Assembly (NCBI GenBank): GCA_016741915.1
Contig: JACVCS010000001.1
Location: forward strand, 2,291 to 66,290
Length of the DNA stretch: 64,000 bases
Direction of reading: 5' to 3'
Origin: Phycisphaerales bacterium
GTDB lineage: Bacteria; Planctomycetota; Phycisphaerae; Phycisphaerales; UBA1924
Of the stretch, positions 231-30,826 are shown piece by piece. Position 1 is the stretch's first letter; each line of letters begins with the position of its first letter. A model generated the notes under the pieces. That model saw only the letters and a list, made by a program, of their open reading frames with translations. It searched no databases and was not told the origin of the DNA. The translations under genes were made by a program, and so were the position numbers.

Positions 231-3200
231 CTATTTTGCGACGCGGTCGACCCAGGTTTGGACGATGGGGCGGAGTTCGATGTCCTGGGCTTCGGCGGGG
301 GCGGCGGGGCCGAAGTATCGGCGTTCGAGGGTGCGGATGGCGATGGCGAGTTCTTCTTGAGCGGGCGGGGGGAGGGCGGTGCCGTTGAGGGATTGAATCT
401 TGCGGAGGGTGGCGACGGCGGTGAAGGGGGTGAGATTGCTGGGGACGCTGACGGGCGGGGCCTTGGTCGCGGCGGCCTTGGGGTTGCGGCGGATGAGGAA
501 GATCAGAACGGCGGCGGCGATCGCGGCGGAGGCGATGGCGACGAGCGCGGGCCAGAGGCGCGAGATGAGGCTCACGGGTGAGCCGACGGAGACGATGGGC
601 TTGGCGTCGACGATGTCGGCGTCGGAGAACTGCTTCAGGGTGATCTTCGGGGCGGGTTGACCCGCGGCGAGGGCGGCGGCCTTCGGGAACGCGAAGTCGA
701 TCACGCCCGCGGAAGTTGGCGAGAGGTGCAGCATCCACGAACGCTCGGCGATGGGGACGACCTCGGTTCCCGCGGCGTCGAGCTCGACGATGTTCAGGCC
801 TTTGTCTTCGACGCGGTCCAGCTTCACGCCCGTAAGTGAGGCGGTGTCGATCACGCGGTTGAGATCGGGGATGAGGCCCTTGCCCTTGGCGCGGATTTCC
901 AGACGGATCGGCGAGACGGGGAGGGGCTGGCCGGTGGCGGTGGGTTGTGTTGGTTGCAGGGTGGGTGGGATGACGCGGTCGTCGAGGATCATTTCGAGTT
1001 GAAGATCGCCGACCGGGCGTGCGGGGGGCTGAGCGCCGGCGGTGGTGCGGGCGTCGAGGAGGACTTCGGTTGAGGTGATGGGGATGATGACGGAGCCTTG
1101 CCCGTCGCTGAAGTCCATGTCGATTTTGACCTGCGGCAGGCGGTCGACAGAGACGTCTTTGGGTTTGAGGAGGAGGTAGGCGAGGGGGAACTGTTCCCAA
1201 CCCGGGCGGGCGATGCTGATGGGTTGGACGGTGGGTTTGTGGAAGGTGACGGAGAGGATTTCAAAGCGGTCGGAGAGGCGTTCGCGGAGGTGTTTTTCGA
1301 TGTCTTCTTTGTAGTTGATGGGCTGGCCGGTCATGGGGTTGTAGCCGTCGGAGGTGAGGTAGCGGGCGAAGGAGCCGCTCTCGCGGCTGATGGCGCGGGT
1401 GCACCAGATGGCGAGTTGAGCGCCGAAGGGCTGGCCTGCGGGGGTGTTGGTGGAGCCGTCGACGGTGAGGGAGAGCTGGATTTCCTTGGTCAGGTCGTCG
1501 TAGTAATCGAGCATGGCGCGGGCGTCTTTGCCTTCGGGGGCGGAGCCGATGATCTGTGAGGCGAGGCGGAGGAAGCGGACTTTGAGTTCGGGGGGGAGTG
1601 AGCGGGAGGCGGTCTGGGCTTCCTGGGCGAAGAGTGCGCGGTGCTTGGCGGCTTGATCGGGCCCGAGGGCGTCGATGGCGGCGGCGACGGCGGAGACTTG
1701 TTGTTGATCGGCGTTGTCTTGACGGGTGAGCTGGCCGAGCTCTGAGGCGCCGAGGGCGCTGTTGAACCACTGCATGAAGACGCGTGCGGAGGGCTTGGTT
1801 GCGCCGGTTTTCAGAGCGCCGCTGTAGAGTTCGGAAGCGCGGTCGTACGCGGAGAAGGCTTGAGCGCGGGTGGCGGTGTAGACGGGCATGTCGGCTTTCT
1901 GGCCGTAGAGGAACTCGGCCTTGTCGAAGAAGAGGTCGCCCAGTGCGGCGTGGGCCTCGAAGGAGTCGGGCTTGGATTGGATGCTGATGGTGGCGAGCGC
2001 GACGGCGACGTCGTAGCCGCGGAGAACCATGGCGGTGAGTTCTTTGTCGGTGCGTTTGCTGCCGGCGGCTTGCTGGATGCGGGGCTGTCGCCAGGTGGAG
2101 GCGAGGCGTTGGCGCATGTTGGCGACGAGGAGGGAGCGGACTTCGGGCTCCATGGCGGAGGGATCGCCGAAGACGGCTTGGATGTCTTCGGGCTGATAGA
2201 CCTCGGCGTCGGAGTGTGAGGCGGCGAAGGCACCGACGAGTGCGGCGGGGTTGACACCTTTCAGATCGATGGCGCGGAGCTCGCTGAGGACGTCTTTGAG
2301 TTGTGCGATGACGCGTTGCTGTTTGGCGCGGGTGAGGGGGACGCCGCCGCCGCCGGTGTCGTAGCCGTAACCGCCGTAGCCGCCGTACATTGCGTATGGG
2401 TTGTAGTAGCGTGAGCGGTTGTAGGGGTTTGCGCCGCCGGAGGAATCGCCCGGGGTGCGGCGGGCGTATGCGGGCCAGGCGGAGACGAGGGCGTTGGCGA
2501 GTTTGAGTGCGCGTTCGCGGTCGGTCTTCACGACGGGCTTGATCATGCTGAGGACGGCGGCGGTGTCGCCCGAGGCGGCGGCGGTGGAGGCGACCATGAG
2601 CTCGAGTTTGGCGGCGAGGCCTTGGTCGATGCTGCGGAGCCAGGCGGGGGTAGGGAGGGTTTCGCCGAGTTGATCGGCGGGGATGATCTGTTGGCGGTTG
2701 GCGCCGTCGTTGTTGTAGTTGTTGTAGCGGCCGGCGTAGGAGGGGTCGTCCATTCCTTCGGCGGGCGCGCCGCGGGAGCTGACGCGGCGGGAGAGTTCGG
2801 CTTCCTCGACGAAGAGGCCGGTGAGGAGGTTGAGCCCGGTGCGCCAGGAGCCGAGGGACTCTCCCGAGCCGGTGAGCATGGCGAGGCCGACACGGCGGGC
2901 GGAGAGGAGGGCCTTGACGCGTTCGTCGGCTTTGGCGTTGCGCTGGCGGAGTTGGCGTGAGCGGTTGCTGACGCTGTCGATGGCCTTCCAGCCCATGTCG
3001 GGCTCGCTGGCGAAGAGACGCTTGAGGAAGGCGTCGCCTTCGTCTTGGGGGATGTCGTTGATGAAGATGAGGGCGAGGGCGAGGGCCTTTTCGCGTTGCT
3101 CGGGCTTGGATTTTTCGAGGCTCAGCACTTCCATCGTGGTGCGCCAGCCCTGGGCGATGGCTTCTTCACGCGGGGTGCCTTGCTTGGATTTGGCGAGCGC

Positions 3201-4361
3201 GTCGAAGTAGACGGCGTAGAGGTTGAGCAGTTCGGGGTCTTTCTGTTCGCGGGCGACCTCAAGGGCGGGGAGGTATTCCTGGGCTTCGATGGGGAGGCCC
3301 GCGGCGACGAGGAGCGTGGCGGCGTTTTTGCGTTTGACGGGGTCGGAGCCGCCGAAGTGGAGGGTGCCGGCCTTGATCTGCGGCGCGACGGCGGAGGCTT
3401 GTGAGCCGCGCTGGGAGGTGTTGCTGAGGATCTGCCCGAGGCTGGTGATGAGTTTTTCGTTCAGCGCGTCGGGGGAGGCTTCGGAGAGTTCGAGGACTTC
3501 GTCGGGGACCATGGCTTGGTCGGCGCTGACGAGGGTGGTGAGGACGTGGGCGTAGATGGATTTTTTGTCTTCGCCGCCTTCCTTTTCGATGAACTCGCCG
3601 ACGGATTTCCAGTCGCCCGCGACGACGAGGAGGCGGAAGTTCTCGGCCTTGTCGGCGAGGGCTTTCTGTGCGGCTTCGCGGGCTTTGCGCTGCGCGGGGG
3701 AGATGGCGCGGGGGTTGCTCACGCGGCCTGGGGACATGCCGTCGATGCCCGGGGGCATGTCGGTTGGGCCTTCGAGCGCGGATGGGTCGGTTGGCGTGTT
3801 GGTGGGAGGAGTGAGGCTTGGGATTGCGGGGAGGGTTGGGGGTGTGGGAGTGCTGGTCGGCGGGGTTGTGCCGGGGCTTGGTGCAGGGGCGGGCGCTGCG
3901 GGTGTGGTGATGTCGGCGGGTTTGGACGCCTCGGGTTTGGTTTCGTCGGGCTTGGGTTCTTCGAGTTTGGGTTCTTCGGGCGGGCGGAGGCGCTTTTCGC
4001 GGGCCTGAGAAGCGAGCTTGGCGCGGGCGGCGACGATGGACTGGGGGTTGCGGGAGAAGTCGAGGCGTTGGATGCGCTTGCCGAGGTCGGTTTTGAACTC
4101 GATGCGGTCGTCGGCGTTGCCGCCGCCGCGGCGCATCATCATGGAGGGGTCGAAGTCTTCGCCGGGGCCGCCTTCTTCGTCGAACTCGATGCGGTCCATG
4201 CCGCCCATGGATGGGGGCATGGTGATGGAGAAGGTGCTGGGCTGTGCGAGGAGTTGGGCGGGATGGAGAGCGAGGATGGAGGTGCAGACGCCGGCGGCGG
4301 CGAGGAGTTTGAGGAGGGTGTGGGTGCGGGCGGTGGAATCGGTTGGGTGGCGGGTGGTCAT
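231..4361 (-). CDS. Large exported, membrane-anchored helical protein, last gene of the MoxR/VWA cluster
   Basis: This 1376-residue protein starts at ATG 4361, 90 bp beyond the preceding gene. An N-terminal signal sequence (about residues 10-40, ending near LLAQPS) is followed by a charged region, then a long Pro/Thr/Ala linker (about 130-220). A mostly helical, repeat-like body follows, interrupted near residue 670 by a Gly/Tyr-rich stretch (YNPYAMYGGYGGYGYDTGGGG in part). One membrane segment (about 1300-1325, WPALVAIASAAIAAAVLIFLI) precedes a short cytoplasmic tail of about 70 residues. I recognise no catalytic motif. In BatA-E type operons the last genes encode TPR or BatD-like periplasmic proteins, so a scaffold or repeat-protein role in the same complex is inferred from position only. 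The reading frame and stop are secure; the function is unknown. Confidence 0.8.
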   Translation of the reverse strand: MTTRHPTDSTARTHTLLKLLAAAGVCTSILALHPAQLLAQPSTFSITMPPSMGGMDRIEFDEEGGPGEDFDPSMMMRRGGGNADDRIEFKTDLGKRIQRLDFSRNPQSIVAARAKLASQAREKRLRPPEEPKLEEPKPDETKPEASKPADITTPAAPAPAPSPGTTPPTSTPTPPTLPAIPSLTPPTNTPTDPSALEGPTDMPPGIDGMSPGRVSNPRAISPAQRKAREAAQKALADKAENFRLLVVAGDWKSVGEFIEKEGGEDKKSIYAHVLTTLVSADQAMVPDEVLELSEASPDALNEKLITSLGQILSNTSQRGSQASAVAPQIKAGTLHFGGSDPVKRKNAATLLVAAGLPIEAQEYLPALEVAREQKDPELLNLYAVYFDALAKSKQGTPREEAIAQGWRTTMEVLSLEKSKPEQREKALALALIFINDIPQDEGDAFLKRLFASEPDMGWKAIDSVSNRSRQLRQRNAKADERVKALLSARRVGLAMLTGSGESLGSWRTGLNLLTGLFVEEAELSRRVSSRGAPAEGMDDPSYAGRYNNYNNDGANRQQIIPADQLGETLPTPAWLRSIDQGLAAKLELMVASTAAASGDTAAVLSMIKPVVKTDRERALKLANALVSAWPAYARRTPGDSSGGANPYNRSRYYNPYAMYGGYGGYGYDTGGGGVPLTRAKQQRVIAQLKDVLSELRAIDLKGVNPAALVGAFAASHSDAEVYQPEDIQAVFGDPSAMEPEVRSLLVANMRQRLASTWRQPRIQQAAGSKRTDKELTAMVLRGYDVAVALATISIQSKPDSFEAHAALGDLFFDKAEFLYGQKADMPVYTATRAQAFSAYDRASELYSGALKTGATKPSARVFMQWFNSALGASELGQLTRQDNADQQQVSAVAAAIDALGPDQAAKHRALFAQEAQTASRSLPPELKVRFLRLASQIIGSAPEGKDARAMLDYYDDLTKEIQLSLTVDGSTNTPAGQPFGAQLAIWCTRAISRESGSFARYLTSDGYNPMTGQPINYKEDIEKHLRERLSDRFEILSVTFHKPTVQPISIARPGWEQFPLAYLLLKPKDVSVDRLPQVKIDMDFSDGQGSVIIPITSTEVLLDARTTAGAQPPARPVGDLQLEMILDDRVIPPTLQPTQPTATGQPLPVSPIRLEIRAKGKGLIPDLNRVIDTASLTGVKLDRVEDKGLNIVELDAAGTEVVPIAERSWMLHLSPTSAGVIDFAFPKAAALAAGQPAPKITLKQFSDADIVDAKPIVSVGSPVSLISRLWPALVAIASAAIAAAVLIFLIRRNPKAAATKAPPVSVPSNLTPFTAVATLRKIQSLNGTALPPPAQEELAIAIRTLERRYFGPAAPAEAQDIELRPIVQTWVDRVAK

Positions 4362-25428: not shown

Positions 25429-28278
25429 TTACCGCGCGGGTTTGGCTTCGATGGCGGTGTGGGGAACTGGGGGTGTGTGCCGGCCGTTGAGTTTGGGGGA
25501 CTTGGTGATGACGATGGCGGGCTTGGGCTCGGGGTTCGCGGCGGGCGCGTGCGGGTGGAGCGGGGCCTGCGCGGCGGCCTGGATGAACGTCACCGGGAGT
25601 TTCAGGATCGACGAGAAGACGACGCTCTTGCGCTGTGCGCCCCAGAGGTCGACGGCGGGGTCGGTGCCGGGCTCGCAATCGACAAGCACGCGGAGCTGAT
25701 CGGCGCTGGGGACCAAACGCACGGCGTTGATGCTCTGGGTGTGCGAGCGATCAAGGCCCACCGCGACGCGGACGATCGATGAGAGCACGCGCACGACAGC
25801 GCGCTGGTGCTTGGTCAGATCGCGCAGCAGCGGGTGGCGCTTGCGCGGGGCGGCGCCGCGGTGGAAGCGGGCGACGAGGGCGATCAGGCGGGTCTGCTCG
25901 CTGGTGAGGCCGGGCATATCGGCGTGGAGGATGAGGTTGGCGGAATGGACGTGGTGCTTGTCGTAGTTGACGACATAGCCGATATCGAGCAAGAGAGCGG
26001 AGGCGTAGAGGAGGAGGCGCGAGTCGCTGGAGAAGATCTCGGTGGCGTTGGCCTGTGAGAGTGATCGGACGCGGAGCGTGCCGGCGGAGATGGCGGAGGC
26101 GAGCTGATCGAAGATTGACAGGGCGAGCTTCGCGGCGTGGGCGGCGTGGGCGGCGTCGTAGCGGCAGCTCTCGGCGAATCGGCGGACGGAGTTGATGATC
26201 GCGCCGGCGCGCCCGGCGGTGTTGGCGTGTTGAAGGTTGGGCGCTGAGGGAAAGATCTTCGCGGAAATCTCGAGCAGGACCCCGTCGCGGATGCCGCCGT
26301 CGTGGACGCGGAGGCGTTTGACCTTCAGGGCCTTGCAAAGGCGGTGGAGGATGGTCAGGCCCGGAACGATGATGTCGGCGCGGTCGGCGGCGAGGCCCGG
26401 ATATCGGGCGCGTTGATCGAGGGGGAGTTTGCGCAGTTCGCGGATGATTGAGGAGAGTTCGTCGAGCTTGACTTCGTAGCCGCGGAGAGCGCCGATGGGG
26501 GCGGGCGGGGCTTTTTCGTCGCGTTTTCGCGCGGCGCGCTGGATGGCCATCGCGGCGAGGGAGGTGAAGGTGCCGCCGGTGCCGATGATGAGTTGCGGGC
26601 GGACGGGCGCGGGCTTGAGTTTGCTCGCGATGAACTTGTCGAGGAACTTTCGCAGTTCATCGAAGCGTGCGCCTGCGGCGGCCTCGGGTCCGCCGAAGCG
26701 CTCGGTGAGTTTGACGGCGCCGATGGGCAGGAGGTCGACCTGTTCAACGAGCCCGCCGCTGGCGGTGACGATCTCGGTGCTGCCGCCGCCGATGTCGATG
26801 GTCGCGACGGTCATGGCGGAGAGGTCGAAGGCGGCGGAGACGGAGCGGAAGCAGAGGGCGGCTTCTTCCTGAGCGGTGATGACGTCGATGGGGAGCCCGG
26901 CGAGTTGTTGGGCGCGTTTCTGGAAGTCGCGGCCGTTGGTGGCTTCACGGACGGCACTGGTGGCGACGGCGCGGATGACGCGGGCGTTGTAGCCGCGGGC
27001 GATGCGGGCCATGTTGGCGATGGTGGCGCAGCCGTGGGCCATGGCGTTATCGTCGAGTTTGCCCGTGGAATCGAGGCCCTTGCCCAGGCGGACGATTTCT
27101 TTTTCATCGTCGAGAACGCGGTAGCGCCCGTTGGGGGAGGCCTCGGCGACGATGAGGCGGATGGAGTTGGTGCCGATGTCGATCGCGGCGATGCGCTGCG
27201 GCTTGGTCGGATCGATCGCGGATTGGTCTAGCGCGGGCGTAGCGGTCGGCTGATCCTCGATCGGTAGCGGATGGAATGAAGGTGACGAAGATGATGGCGA
27301 GGGCGATGCCAGGGCGAGCGTGCGCTCGTGGTGCGAGACGGCGTCGAGGAGTTTTCTCAGTGCAGCCCGGCCGGCGGTGTTCCAGGAAGAGCGGGCGTCG
27401 GCGGCGCTCGAGCGGATCAGTTTCTGCTCGCGCGTGATGAACGCGCTCAGGCTCGTTCGGAGATTCACCTTCGAGGTCTTGGCCTTGCTCAGTCGGCGCT
27501 GCGCGAGCTTCAGCAGAACGCAGGCGTCGTTGAGTTGACCCAGGGCCTGCTGCAGGTTGGTCAGCTCGGACAGAACTTCACGCAGTTCTTTGGAGGAGAG
27601 CCCGGGCTCGCACAGTTCCGCGGCGTATCGCACGCGTTTCAGGGCTACACGCAGCTCGTGCAGGCGTTCGACGCTCGCGAGCAGATCTGCGGCGGAAGGT
27701 GCTTTCCGGGTGGCTTTGGAGGCGGGACGCTTTGCCGCGTTGACGGTGGATTCGTTCTCGCCGAGTGCCTGCGCGGCTTTGATCAGCGACGCCAAACCCT
27801 CTCGCCAGACAGCCGGGGCTTCGCTGAGGCTGTTCGTAGCGAGGGCTTTGCGCACACGCCGGTCGAACTGCTGCACGTCGTTGTGGGCGTCGGGCAGGCG
27901 CTTGGCGAGGCGACGCAGGCCTGAGCGTTCGTGCGAACGGAGGCGTGCCCGTAGGTGCTCGATGGCCGGTTCGAGCGTCTTCGCGACGGTGAGTTTCGAC
28001 AACGCCTGGCTCATCACGTGCGCGTTGCGGACGCGACCGGCCGCGGTGCGAAGGGTGTTCACCGCGGCGGCGGCTTTGATCAGCCGCCTGTCGTTCGCGT
28101 CGGCGAGGAGATCGGTGATGGCCAGGGCACGCCGGGCGCAGACGCGGAGGCGGTGCACGGCGGCGGAGGTCGGGTTCGATCGACGCTTGACCTTTTCGAT
28201 CGCTTCGAGCAGATCAGCCACACGTCCGGCGGCTTGCGTACTCAGCCACGGTCCGTGTTGGTCTGTCGGTGGCGTCAT
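25429..28278 (-). CDS. CHAD domain fused to exopolyphosphatase/GppA phosphatase
   Basis: 949 residues from ATG 28278; a longer frame upstream lacks protein-like sequence. The first 310 residues form a CHAD domain with the basic helix motifs VHRLRVCARRALAI and HELRVALKRVRYAAELC. A Ser/Pro linker (about 315-350) follows. Then comes the Ppx/GppA ATPase-fold domain with AAIDIGTNSIRLIVAE, AVATSAVREATNG, the catalytic Glu region ITAQEEA, TIDIGGGSTEI and IIGTGGTFTSLA. The C-terminal 250 residues look like the HD-type domain of long Ppx enzymes. CHAD domains bind polyphosphate, so the fusion probably places a polyphosphate-binding module on a polyphosphate or pppGpp hydrolase. Confidence 0.9.
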   Translation of the reverse strand: MTPPTDQHGPWLSTQAAGRVADLLEAIEKVKRRSNPTSAAVHRLRVCARRALAITDLLADANDRRLIKAAAAVNTLRTAAGRVRNAHVMSQALSKLTVAKTLEPAIEHLRARLRSHERSGLRRLAKRLPDAHNDVQQFDRRVRKALATNSLSEAPAVWREGLASLIKAAQALGENESTVNAAKRPASKATRKAPSAADLLASVERLHELRVALKRVRYAAELCEPGLSSKELREVLSELTNLQQALGQLNDACVLLKLAQRRLSKAKTSKVNLRTSLSAFITREQKLIRSSAADARSSWNTAGRAALRKLLDAVSHHERTLALASPSPSSSSPSFHPLPIEDQPTATPALDQSAIDPTKPQRIAAIDIGTNSIRLIVAEASPNGRYRVLDDEKEIVRLGKGLDSTGKLDDNAMAHGCATIANMARIARGYNARVIRAVATSAVREATNGRDFQKRAQQLAGLPIDVITAQEEAALCFRSVSAAFDLSAMTVATIDIGGGSTEIVTASGGLVEQVDLLPIGAVKLTERFGGPEAAAGARFDELRKFLDKFIASKLKPAPVRPQLIIGTGGTFTSLAAMAIQRAARKRDEKAPPAPIGALRGYEVKLDELSSIIRELRKLPLDQRARYPGLAADRADIIVPGLTILHRLCKALKVKRLRVHDGGIRDGVLLEISAKIFPSAPNLQHANTAGRAGAIINSVRRFAESCRYDAAHAAHAAKLALSIFDQLASAISAGTLRVRSLSQANATEIFSSDSRLLLYASALLLDIGYVVNYDKHHVHSANLILHADMPGLTSEQTRLIALVARFHRGAAPRKRHPLLRDLTKHQRAVVRVLSSIVRVAVGLDRSHTQSINAVRLVPSADQLRVLVDCEPGTDPAVDLWGAQRKSVVFSSILKLPVTFIQAAAQAPLHPHAPAANPEPKPAIVITKSPKLNGRHTPPVPHTAIEAKPAR

Positions 28279-28449
28279 GACGAGTGCCTGTGGGCTGTCG
28301 AGATATCTTCTCAGACTTCTCCGCCGGAAAGGCCGACGAATGAGAAGAACTTCGCCGCGAGGCCATGCTAGAAACCCCTGAGCGTTGAACGAGCAGGCTC
28401 GGAGGCAAGAAGGAGCGATTTCGTAGAATGGTTGGTATTTGGCTGGAAC

Positions 28450-28478
28450 TTGACGCACTCAAAGGATTCTGTTAGGTT
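28450..28478 (+). promoter_or_regulatory. Candidate promoter of the subtilase gene
   Basis: TTGACG (28450-28455) and TAGGTT (28473-28478) are separated by 17 bp. The -35 is good, the -10 poor. The rest of 28279-28618, between divergent genes, holds no other feature I can support. Confidence 0.4.
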
Positions 28479-28618
28479 ACGCGCGTCGGAAGTTCTTTCG
28501 GTGATGAGGAAACCTCGTGCGTGAATCTGGCGAAAGTTGGCGCGTGTGACAGACTAGAAGCGTGTCGGAGGCGTGTCGGCATCCCTCGGTTGGTTCTCTC
28601 CATCCGTCTGGGAAGTGC

Positions 28619-30826
28619 ATGAGTCGAAAGACAGGGCAACACGTGCGGGTTTGGGCGCTGGCGTTGTGTGCCGGCTCGGGGCTGTCTTGCCTGCACGCTG
28701 GTTGGGCGTCGACGGCGGACGCTCGCTTGCACGCCGTATCCAAAGTTGAGCAGGCCCACGAATCCACCAGCGGTCAGCAGCGCGGCGTGGGCGAGTCGAC
28801 TTCGCTGACTTCGCCGACGCCTTTGGTTGCAGGAAACAGCGGACCAACTCGCGGCAGCGGACCGGGCAACCCGCAGGTGCGTCACCCCGATGATCTGGTC
28901 AATCGACCGGGCGAGTTGGAGTTCAGCGGGCAGGTCATCGTGCTGCCGAGGACGATCGAGCAGATCGCCGCAGCGCATGGCGTTGATCATGCGCAGGCGC
29001 AGGGGCTGCTCGACGAAGCCGTGGCGGCGTTCGAAGCGCGGGTGGTTCAGCGTGTGGAATCCACCGGCGAGATGATCGTGCGCGTCCCCGCGGGGATCGA
29101 CGACGCGGCGTATTGCCTGAGTCTCCGCGAGACTGGGCTCTTCGCGTTCGTGACGCCCGACTGGCTGTGCTACCCGGTGTCGGGTGTCGATGACCCGCTG
29201 TTCCCGAATCAATGGCAGCACAGGGCGCTGCAGAGCGACAGAGTGTGGGACATCACCCAAGGCTCCGACGATGTCATCCTCGCGATTGTCGACACGGGCG
29301 TTGACGCGTTTCACCCCGACTTGAACTCGGTGCTGGTCTTGCCAGGACATAACAGCGTGGGCAAGTCGGCCTTTGCGCCGGTGGGCGGCGCGTTCAACGA
29401 CGTTTCGCTGATCGGGCACGGCACGCGCTGCGCCGGGCTGGCCGCCGCGAGCGCGAACAACGGGCAGGGCGTCTCGGGGCTGGCCCCGGGCGTTCGTGTG
29501 CTGGCTGTGCGGTGCACGAATCAACCCTCCGGGGCGGCGTTGCTGTCGGACATGCTCAACGGCGCGGAATGGGCTTCGCGGAGCGGCGCACAGATCGTCA
29601 GCCTTTCGTTTTCAGGGGTCACCAGCCCAAGCGTGGGGATCCGCGGCAGCGTGCTGAAGTCGCTCGGATCGCTCATGTTCTTCGCCGCGGGGAATAGCGG
29701 TGCGGAGCTTTCCGCCGCGGCGGATTGGTCGGACGTGGTGATCGTCAGCGCGGTGGACTTCAGCGATGCTCGGTACACCGATTCGAACTTCGGGCAGCCG
29801 GTGGACGTCGCCGCCCCGGGCGTGGCGGTCCTGACCACGCTGCCGCAGAACCGGTACGTCAGCGCCACGGGCACGAGCTTTGCAGCGCCGCAGGCTGCGG
29901 CGGCGGCGGCGTTGCTCTGGTCGATCTCGCCGGCAATTTCACCCGACGACGTACAGAGTCTGCTCGTGTCGTCAGCCATCGATATCTTCGAGCCCGGACG
30001 CGACGTGTTCAGCGGCGGCGGACGCCTCTCCCCGTTGCGGGCGGCTCAACAGCTGCTCAGCCTCTCGGGTGAGTACCTCGCGCCGAGCGCTCTGGCATTC
30101 CCAACGCCCGGACTGCGGGCGACGTTCTACGACCTGACGAACGCGCAGATCCCCGTCGCGAGCGATCAGAGCGGCTCGGGCGATGACAGTCTGAAGTTCA
30201 TGCCCGTGCTGTCGCAGCTTTCAGCCGAGTCGGTGGTGATCTCGCCGGATATCAACTATGCGCCGGGGGCGTTGGTCTTCCCCCAGAACGGCGGGCCGAA
30301 CCGAGGTGTCGGCGTGACCTTCGACGGCTTTGTTCAGATCGATTCAACCGGGCTGAAGACCTTCGCGTTGTCGAACATCGATTCGGCCCGGCTAACCATC
30401 GACGGGCTGCTGGTAATCAACAACGACGGGCGCCACGACCTGCAGGAACGCACCGGGAGCCTTCGCCTTCAGGCAGGGTACCACTCGATTCGCGTGGAGT
30501 ATTACTCGCACAATGAGAACACCGCCGTGGTGCTTTCCACCGTCAACCAGGCGGGTGTTCGCACGCCCATCCCGGCGTCGAAGTTTGTGCGGGTGATCAC
30601 ATCTCTCGATGTGGCGGACATCGCGGACTGGAGCGGCGAGCCCGGGCGCAACGGGCACATCGACGAGGGCGACTACAACCTGTTCTTCACGTCGTTCTTC
30701 TTCCCGAACTACGGGGGCCAGTTGTACGCCGACGTCGCCGACGACGCGGGGAACCCGGGGCCGAACGGCGTGGTGAACGAGGGCGACTACAACGCCTTTT
30801 TCTTCTGGTACTTCGCGGGGCTGTGA
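28619..30826 (+). CDS. Secreted subtilisin-like serine protease with PA14 and dockerin-like tail
   Basis: 735 residues from ATG 28619, which yields a good signal peptide; a GTG 57 bp upstream is less likely. An inhibitor-like propeptide region (about 95-190) is followed by the S8 domain with Asp225 (AIVDTGVDAF), His267 (GHGTRCAG), the oxyanion AAGNSG and Ser420 (SATGTSFAAP), all intact. A PA14-like carbohydrate-binding region follows (about 505-660, TIDGLLVINNDG, GYHSIRVEYY). The last 75 residues carry two DEGDYNxFF / NEGDYNAFF calcium-loop-like repeats resembling the GC-type dockerin of Phycisphaerae. It is probably secreted and anchored at the cell surface. Confidence 0.9.
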   Translation: MSRKTGQHVRVWALALCAGSGLSCLHAGWASTADARLHAVSKVEQAHESTSGQQRGVGESTSLTSPTPLVAGNSGPTRGSGPGNPQVRHPDDLVNRPGELEFSGQVIVLPRTIEQIAAAHGVDHAQAQGLLDEAVAAFEARVVQRVESTGEMIVRVPAGIDDAAYCLSLRETGLFAFVTPDWLCYPVSGVDDPLFPNQWQHRALQSDRVWDITQGSDDVILAIVDTGVDAFHPDLNSVLVLPGHNSVGKSAFAPVGGAFNDVSLIGHGTRCAGLAAASANNGQGVSGLAPGVRVLAVRCTNQPSGAALLSDMLNGAEWASRSGAQIVSLSFSGVTSPSVGIRGSVLKSLGSLMFFAAGNSGAELSAAADWSDVVIVSAVDFSDARYTDSNFGQPVDVAAPGVAVLTTLPQNRYVSATGTSFAAPQAAAAAALLWSISPAISPDDVQSLLVSSAIDIFEPGRDVFSGGGRLSPLRAAQQLLSLSGEYLAPSALAFPTPGLRATFYDLTNAQIPVASDQSGSGDDSLKFMPVLSQLSAESVVISPDINYAPGALVFPQNGGPNRGVGVTFDGFVQIDSTGLKTFALSNIDSARLTIDGLLVINNDGRHDLQERTGSLRLQAGYHSIRVEYYSHNENTAVVLSTVNQAGVRTPIPASKFVRVITSLDVADIADWSGEPGRNGHIDEGDYNLFFTSFFFPNYGGQLYADVADDAGNPGPNGVVNEGDYNAFFFWYFAGL

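Follow-up and report, generated by a model that had tools for sequence, protein, structure and literature searches.

Well-known proteins that join a phosphatase to a CHAD domain are the CYTH/TTM-CHAD polyphosphatases of the E. coli ygiF type, where CHAD stimulated the tripolyphosphatase of ygiF (PMC6537752). The same source puts about half of annotated CHAD proteins with an N-terminal TTM domain, and the authors proposed that CHAD confers processivity on the polyphosphate enzymes it is fused to. CYTH domains are also on record as fused to exopolyphosphatase, HD hydrolase, nucleotidyl kinase or CHAD (Iyer and Aravind 2002, cited in PMC8233210), and biomining archaea are reported to have CHAD and PPX genes in one neighbourhood (PMC10892726). 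Here we describe a gene at which CHAD is joined to a Ppx/GppA hydrolase (exopolyphosphatase/GppA family), identified on the minus strand at 25429..28278 of a 64,000-nucleotide stretch from the assembly GCA_016741915.1 of a Phycisphaerales bacterium (contig JACVCS010000001.1, positions 2,291 to 66,290), referred to as the window. Residues are numbered along its 1009-codon open frame; the numbers of the 949-residue protein are lower by 60.

The window protein resembles the ygiF type in having phosphatase and CHAD in one chain. However, the hydrolase there is TTM/CYTH, whereas here it is a Ppx/GppA enzyme with domain III, placed C-terminal to CHAD, and Pfam found no CYTH match in the fusion protein at E up to 1. 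In the CYTH-exopolyphosphatase fusions, Ppx is likewise attached to a polyphosphate-related domain, and partner domains of that set recur here (CHAD, HD, kinase), but the partner of Ppx is CYTH and not CHAD. Long-form Ppx from E. coli and D. radiodurans (DrPPX, 8JGO) has the catalytic residues, the ASKHA core and domain III in common with our protein, DrPPX matching residues 420-924, and differs in being without CHAD. The stand-alone CHAD phosins (CtCHAD, 6QVA, and Streptomyces PptA, 6RN5) share the fold and the central polyphosphate-binding residues, with no Ppx joined to them. The biomining archaea have the genomic link between CHAD and PPX, in separate genes there and fused here. Of 22 matching PDB sequences, not one covered both halves, and no description of CHAD and Ppx in one protein was found in the open-licence literature searched. 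The design is a familiar one, as CYTH-CHAD and CYTH-exopolyphosphatase fusions are known, and CHAD-Ppx in one protein is a variation on it.

The minus-strand open frame at 25429-28458 runs through 1009 codons without a stop and holds CHAD (PF05235; residues 77-319, E 1.6e-23, 84.3 bits against a gathering score of 25.6), Ppx-GppA (PF02541; residues 444-731, E 7e-55, 186.9 bits against a gathering score of 27) and Ppx-GppA_III (residues 757-915, E 6.1e-22, above the Pfam cut-off) together. The CHAD-Ppx/GppA fusion claimed in a preliminary description of this DNA was thus confirmed, with three domains above their cut-offs in one stop-free frame. The ATG at 28278 (codon 61) is probably the true start, since third-position GC rises there from 0.50 upstream to 0.78 in codons 61-330, and since the residues preceding codon 61 were unconserved in an alignment of ten fused proteins. 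Five candidate starts were examined, GTG331 included, and no Shine-Dalgarno-like string was found at any of them; as ATG61 has none either, this criterion does not discriminate between starts.

A separate Ppx product started in-frame was considered and rejected. The sole ATG, GTG or TTG between codons 276 and 473 is the GTG at codon 331 (27466..27468, minus strand), which sits inside a stretch conserved among fused proteins, and by ATG473 the Ppx core has begun and its first phosphate-binding loop (D427) has been passed. Thus, Ppx would not be produced separately by any obvious route, and one protein is the simplest reading of the two halves. The fusion is not a matter of chance, because a congener (G001) shares both the fusion, at 47% identity to the window protein, and its neighbourhood, and because 37 of the 163 family genomes are fused.

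The CHAD domain (residues 77-319; 27502..28230, minus strand) was assigned from Pfam, alignment to CtCHAD, residue counts and the model fold. Polyphosphate binding by CtCHAD falls when its central residues H253, R256, R260, R296 and R418/Y419 are mutated (PMC6537752). The residues H253, R256, R260, R296, R418 and Y419 align to H102, R105, R109, R144, R277 and Y278, and all six are kept. They are also kept in nearly every fused CHAD, the window's own counted (H102 in 35, Y278 in 34 and each of the other four in all 36), and in the same order in 27, 30, 29, 30, 28 and 29 of 30 separate CHADs; rows covering less than 60% of the domain profile, among fused CHADs that of G441, were excluded from these counts. 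The CHAD half carries a net charge of +28 over 330 residues and is probably a polyphosphate-binding module. When it was modelled alone, CHAD structures took ranks 1, 2, 4 and 5 (Z 12.4-10.8, root-mean-square deviation (rmsd) 4.0-5.2, 224-234 residues), among them 6qv5 (Z 12.4, rmsd 5.2 over 228) and 6qva, which is CtCHAD with polyphosphate (Z 11.5, rmsd 4.8 over 234), but Z values of 10.8-12.4 lie within the chance range for helical bundles and are not decisive. The non-CHAD rows shown for this model had 100-166 residues aligned, and Foldseek placed CtCHAD first (E 3.8e-3, probability 1.00). Since a Z near 12 is indecisive for a helical bundle, it is the sequence match rather than the model that carries the CHAD assignment.

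The Ppx/GppA catalytic core, with the ASKHA fold, spans residues 422-731 (26266..27195, minus strand) and was recognised by Pfam, alignment and structure match. Among the residues tested in DrPPX (PMC11234463), we mapped D7, T10, N11, S12, T82, R86, E114, D136, S141 and E143, of which D7, R86, E114, D136 and E143 served as the catalytic set for family membership. The first four align to D427, T430, N431 and S432, and the remaining six to T500, R504, E532, D555, S560 and E562; all are present, while the position of DrPPX H14 is R434 here. Glutamate stands at position 532 in all 37 fused and all 65 other Ppx rows. The earlier statement that both parts keep their key motifs therefore stood for the mapped Ppx catalytic residues and the six central CHAD positions, and did not extend to the outer front pair of CHAD, where the alignment is weak.

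A model of the 949-residue protein reached a mean predicted local distance difference test score (pLDDT) of 77.9, with the Ppx half mostly above 90. Its best match was H. pylori PPX/GppA (VIA Z 38.2, rmsd 2.5, 480 aligned), tied with other Ppx entries. Between the halves, residues 384-406 (324-346 of 949; 27241..27309, minus strand) had a pLDDT below 50 and are probably a flexible linker. Structure prediction of the domains and linker, proposed at the outset as a check, thus returned a Ppx fold, CHAD structures among the first matches and a low-confidence join between them. At the other end, residues 946-1009 (25432..25623, minus strand) form a proline-rich C-terminal tail of net positive charge, with low model confidence beyond residue ~972.

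The preliminary description had also listed a further C-terminal HD-like region. Such a region is present, yet it is not an extra one: residues 757-915 (25714..26190, minus strand; from Pfam and residue counts) are the ordinary domain III of long Ppx, whose structures match through it, and the HD motif has been lost from it. Codon 824 (25987..25989, minus strand) encodes Leu and codon 900 (25759..25761, minus strand) Val, in place of the His and Asp of the HD pair, positions which we take to be metal ligands of the motif, so that the motif of active HD phosphohydrolases is absent from the domain III of the window protein. Counting the window's own, His is found at 824 in 32 and Asp at 900 likewise in 32 of the 35 fused proteins with domain III, both residues together in 32, while the window protein, G001 and G374 have the Leu and Val. 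In 58 separate domain III rows, position 824 was H in 50, R in 6 and L in 2, and position 900 was D in 50, V in 5 and E in 3. The L/V pair was also found in G019 and G033; on the Ppx tree these two join the window protein, G001 and G374 in a single starred group of five. The simplest reading is that the HD motif was lost once in the subclade of the window protein; single losses at the HD positions also occur elsewhere, e.g., V900 alone in G023. As the motif is gone in this subclade, domain III would have only a structural or binding role there.

Domain III was also observed on its own in a sister family, at L065:6348-8232 (G044), L070:5126-6869 (G056) and L069:1426-3335 (G048). In these loci a CHAD gene is followed by a free-standing domain III gene with the HD motif and without the Ppx core. 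Pfam supported the free-standing domain III in G044 and G056, and the Ppx core lies elsewhere in the G044, G056 and G048 genomes.

The preliminary description had proposed a search for the same architecture in other genomes, and we found it in 36 others of the family. Among the 163 genomes of the family sample, the source genome included, CHAD was detected in 84, Ppx in 89 and both in 63. In 37 of them, again with the source genome, CHAD and Ppx were in one open frame according to domain profiles run on the DNA of all 37, at which fused means the same contig, strand and frame length for both. Domain III was found in 35 of the 37 fused proteins and was absent from G014 and G441. Across 392 genomes of the phylum, the CHAD frames of at least 800 residues among those listed came from four fused members of the family of the window protein and from G207 and G420, which are without Ppx. 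Among the listed CHAD frames of 650-799 residues, there was no Ppx in those of G158, G196, G094, G219 and G173, with G181, G096, G297, G269, G103 and G084 unchecked. A contig scan of 80 listed Ppx loci of many phyla gave no CHAD-Ppx fusion, although five had CHAD in the fetched flank, and none of the 94 plasmid records matched covered 80% of the query. Within the sets searched, which are not exhaustive for other phyla, the fusion was seen only in the family of the window protein.

In 10 family genomes the halves are adjacent on one strand, and in nine of these 10 pairs they overlap by 4 nucleotides, the TGA that ends CHAD being overlapped by the start codon of Ppx. The same 4-nucleotide overlap was found in 11 of the 15 same-strand pairs examined when other families and named records were included. 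One of the latter, a Phycisphaerales bacterium metagenome-assembled genome (L074) with an overlapping CHAD-Ppx pair, was the best-scoring named record among the matches listed. A stop-start overlap of this kind suggests translational coupling, and, since the overlapping frames differ by one, a small insertion or deletion near the overlap would join them. Contig ends cut off both halves in G019, G033 and G508, so these genomes may be fused as well; the CHAD piece of G033 has a divergent protease neighbour, as beside the window fusion. In six of the 13 genomes with non-adjacent halves (G024, G093, G469, G471, G473 and G474), the halves lie ~11-20 kb apart on opposite strands of one contig.

Two other arrangements were seen. 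In G023 (L039:2463-8508) the genes of polyphosphate kinase 1 (PPK1), CHAD and Ppx are consecutive on one strand, with CHAD and Ppx overlapping by 4 nucleotides, in a compact polyphosphate gene cluster. A different Ppx fusion was identified in G446 (L205:4360-6732, plus strand), where a stand-alone Ppx carries a C-terminal thymidylate-kinase-like domain (Pfam E 1.4e-18). Ppx proteins of similar length are found in L209 (G449) and L217 (G445), at 789-790 residues across all three; Pfam was run on L205 only. PPK1 was not found in the G446, G449 and G445 genomes.

The neighbourhood kept between the window and G001 consists of exonuclease VII large subunit, a glycosyltransferase-like protein (weak), an alpha/beta hydrolase, the fusion, an S8 protease and an ABC transporter; no known polyphosphate gene is among these neighbours. 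The S8 protease (28562-30826, plus strand), divergent from the fusion, has a PA14 domain and, by eye, two Asp/Gly-rich dockerin-like C-terminal repeats. Frames resembling it were seen close to the CHAD or fusion gene of G001, G374, G033 and G441. Elsewhere in the window, a 1376-codon open frame (231-4361, minus strand) with coding-type base composition matched nothing in Pfam at E up to 1e-5.

The source genome has a single CHAD, and PPK1 and PPK2 are both present away from the fusion. PPK1 was found in all 37 fused genomes and in 104 of the 126 others (Fisher p 0.0045, uncorrected for relatedness). No RelA_SpoT match was found in the source genome, which is 92% complete, so that the absence is uncertain. 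The domain was detected in 8 of the 163 family genomes, four of them fused (G016, G443, G458 and G510), and was hence not found in 33 of the 37 fused genomes; the same search was positive in 11 of 14 control genomes. In seven of the 8 genomes it lay in open frames of 238-486 residues, which suggests scattered small alarmone synthetases in the family. The presence of PPK1 and PPK2, with no RelA/SpoT synthetase detected, favours polyphosphate over pppGpp as the main substrate.

From these features, the window protein is likely a tethered exopolyphosphatase whose CHAD arm would hold on to a polyphosphate chain or a granule, with binding, docking and processivity inferred here. The N-terminal CHAD, a basic helical bundle, would grip polyphosphate chains or the granule surface, and the flexible linker would connect it to a long-type Ppx/GppA hydrolase (domains I-III), whose core would release terminal phosphates from the chain ends. 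With such a tether the substrate would be more concentrated locally, long chains would be preferred and hydrolysis would become more processive. The self-targeting enzyme proposed in the preliminary description is partly supported, by the true fusion, the main functional residues kept in both halves, the 36 other genomes with this architecture and the polyphosphate kinases of the source genome, while its docking on granules would be a further step. The fusion itself may have arisen when a coupled CHAD-ppx pair was joined by a small frame-restoring change. In a granule preparation from P. aeruginosa, ordinary Ppx was reported in the lysate only, whereas the granule pellet contained one of two CHAD proteins (PMC9239181), hence a CHAD arm could be a way to bring Ppx to granules.

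Several observations weigh against this tethered exopolyphosphatase. On the side of CHAD, R438 and K441 of the CtCHAD front patch, whose mutation lowers affinity ~2- to 10-fold (PMC6537752), correspond to S297 and T300, and the back patch R385, K386, K389 and K390 to N, A, R and P, with one basic residue, both read by hand from an alignment that is weak there. As most of the outer-patch positions so read lack a basic residue, long-chain binding by this CHAD may be weaker. The window protein also has N145, where 28 of the 36 fused CHADs have D, and H147, where 35 of the 36 have D. The blocks of the CHAD half ranged in pLDDT from 33 to 79 in the full-length model, and the half modelled alone, from a five-row alignment, had a mean of 62. 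As for Ppx, NCBIfam gave 155.1 bits to the Ppx and 142.7 bits to the GppA model, both far under the cut-off, and the cut-off of exo_poly_only was not reached either; for this protein, neither Ppx nor GppA is singled out by these models. The source genome has a second, stand-alone Ppx of 373 residues without domain III. Among the PPK1-less genomes (20 listed of 22), CHAD was found in 5 and Ppx in 8, all of those with either except G448 having PPK2. Finally, the halves are not in one open frame in 26 of the 63 genomes with both (10 adjacent, 3 at contig ends and 13 non-adjacent), so the fusion is not required. On the Ppx tree the fused state took 10 changes, against a shuffled mean of 29.3, with starred branches alone forcing 2. 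Unless weak branches mislead, the fusion was gained or lost several times. This tree has 98 of 102 rows (G520, G000b, G050 and G047 left out, five "cut" rows uncounted), some of them from other families or named records, and a faster tree with all 102 rows differs in weak branches.

A more elaborate form of the same idea appears unlikely. It would see a self-docking, processive exopolyphosphatase that arose from a coupled pair, possibly more than once, with domain III, its HD motif kept, perhaps serving in most of the family as a second hydrolase that acts on whatever CHAD brings to it, and with this second site switched off in the window subclade; free-standing gene pairs of CHAD and domain III exist in the sister genomes.

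It is quite unlikely that the protein is instead mainly a phosphate-transfer or sensing protein, fixed to the granule by CHAD, whose Ppx half would pass the terminal phosphate to ADP or report the polyphosphate state. The Ppx of P. aeruginosa has been reported also as a polyphosphate:ADP phosphotransferase (PMC4631893), and the stand-alone Ppx of the source genome could serve as the bulk hydrolase; yet the catalytic set for hydrolysis is complete in the fusion, and PPK2 is already present and could do the phosphate transfer. We consider it very unlikely that the CHAD arm, by keeping the enzyme at granules, slows or gates it, so that the fusion would restrain polyphosphate turnover. Granules are reported to carry CHAD proteins (Tumlirsch and Jendrossek 2017, as cited by PMC6537752 and PMC6973038), and the stretch behind the Ppx core is, by alignment, five residues longer than that of DrPPX, longer alpha-linkers being reported to accompany lower activity (PMC11234463). 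In the one precedent found, however, that of ygiF, CHAD stimulated the phosphatase fused to it. A pppGpp hydrolase of the GppA type, localised by its CHAD arm, is less probable again. The NCBIfam scores leave room for it and H. pylori PPX/GppA heads the tied structural matches, but RelA_SpoT was detected neither in the source genome, 92% complete, nor in most of the fused ones, and a published survey of RelA/SpoT homologues gives zero for its one planctomycete (PMC3153485). The preliminary description had named separate halves in relatives, together with a start near residue 340, as signs of an artefact, with two genes read as one and Ppx started in-frame; relatives do have separate halves, including the overlapping genes of the 10 adjacent-pair genomes, but the only start there is GTG331 in its conserved stretch, no stop intervenes, no further start precedes codon 473, third-position GC stays at 0.80 to codon 390 and is 0.66 in codons 391-419, and the frame is single in 36 other genomes too, so this explanation is largely refuted and extremely improbable.

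The tethered exopolyphosphatase bears on processivity conferred by CHAD, which stands as an open suggestion in the literature (PMC6537752). The family offers fused, overlapping and separate versions of one enzyme pair for comparison, a natural test of whether a grip on polyphosphate helps the hydrolase. Among Phycisphaerales-like planctomycetes, only 8 of the 163 family genomes having given a RelA_SpoT synthetase, the fusion would also mark a polyphosphate-degrading form.

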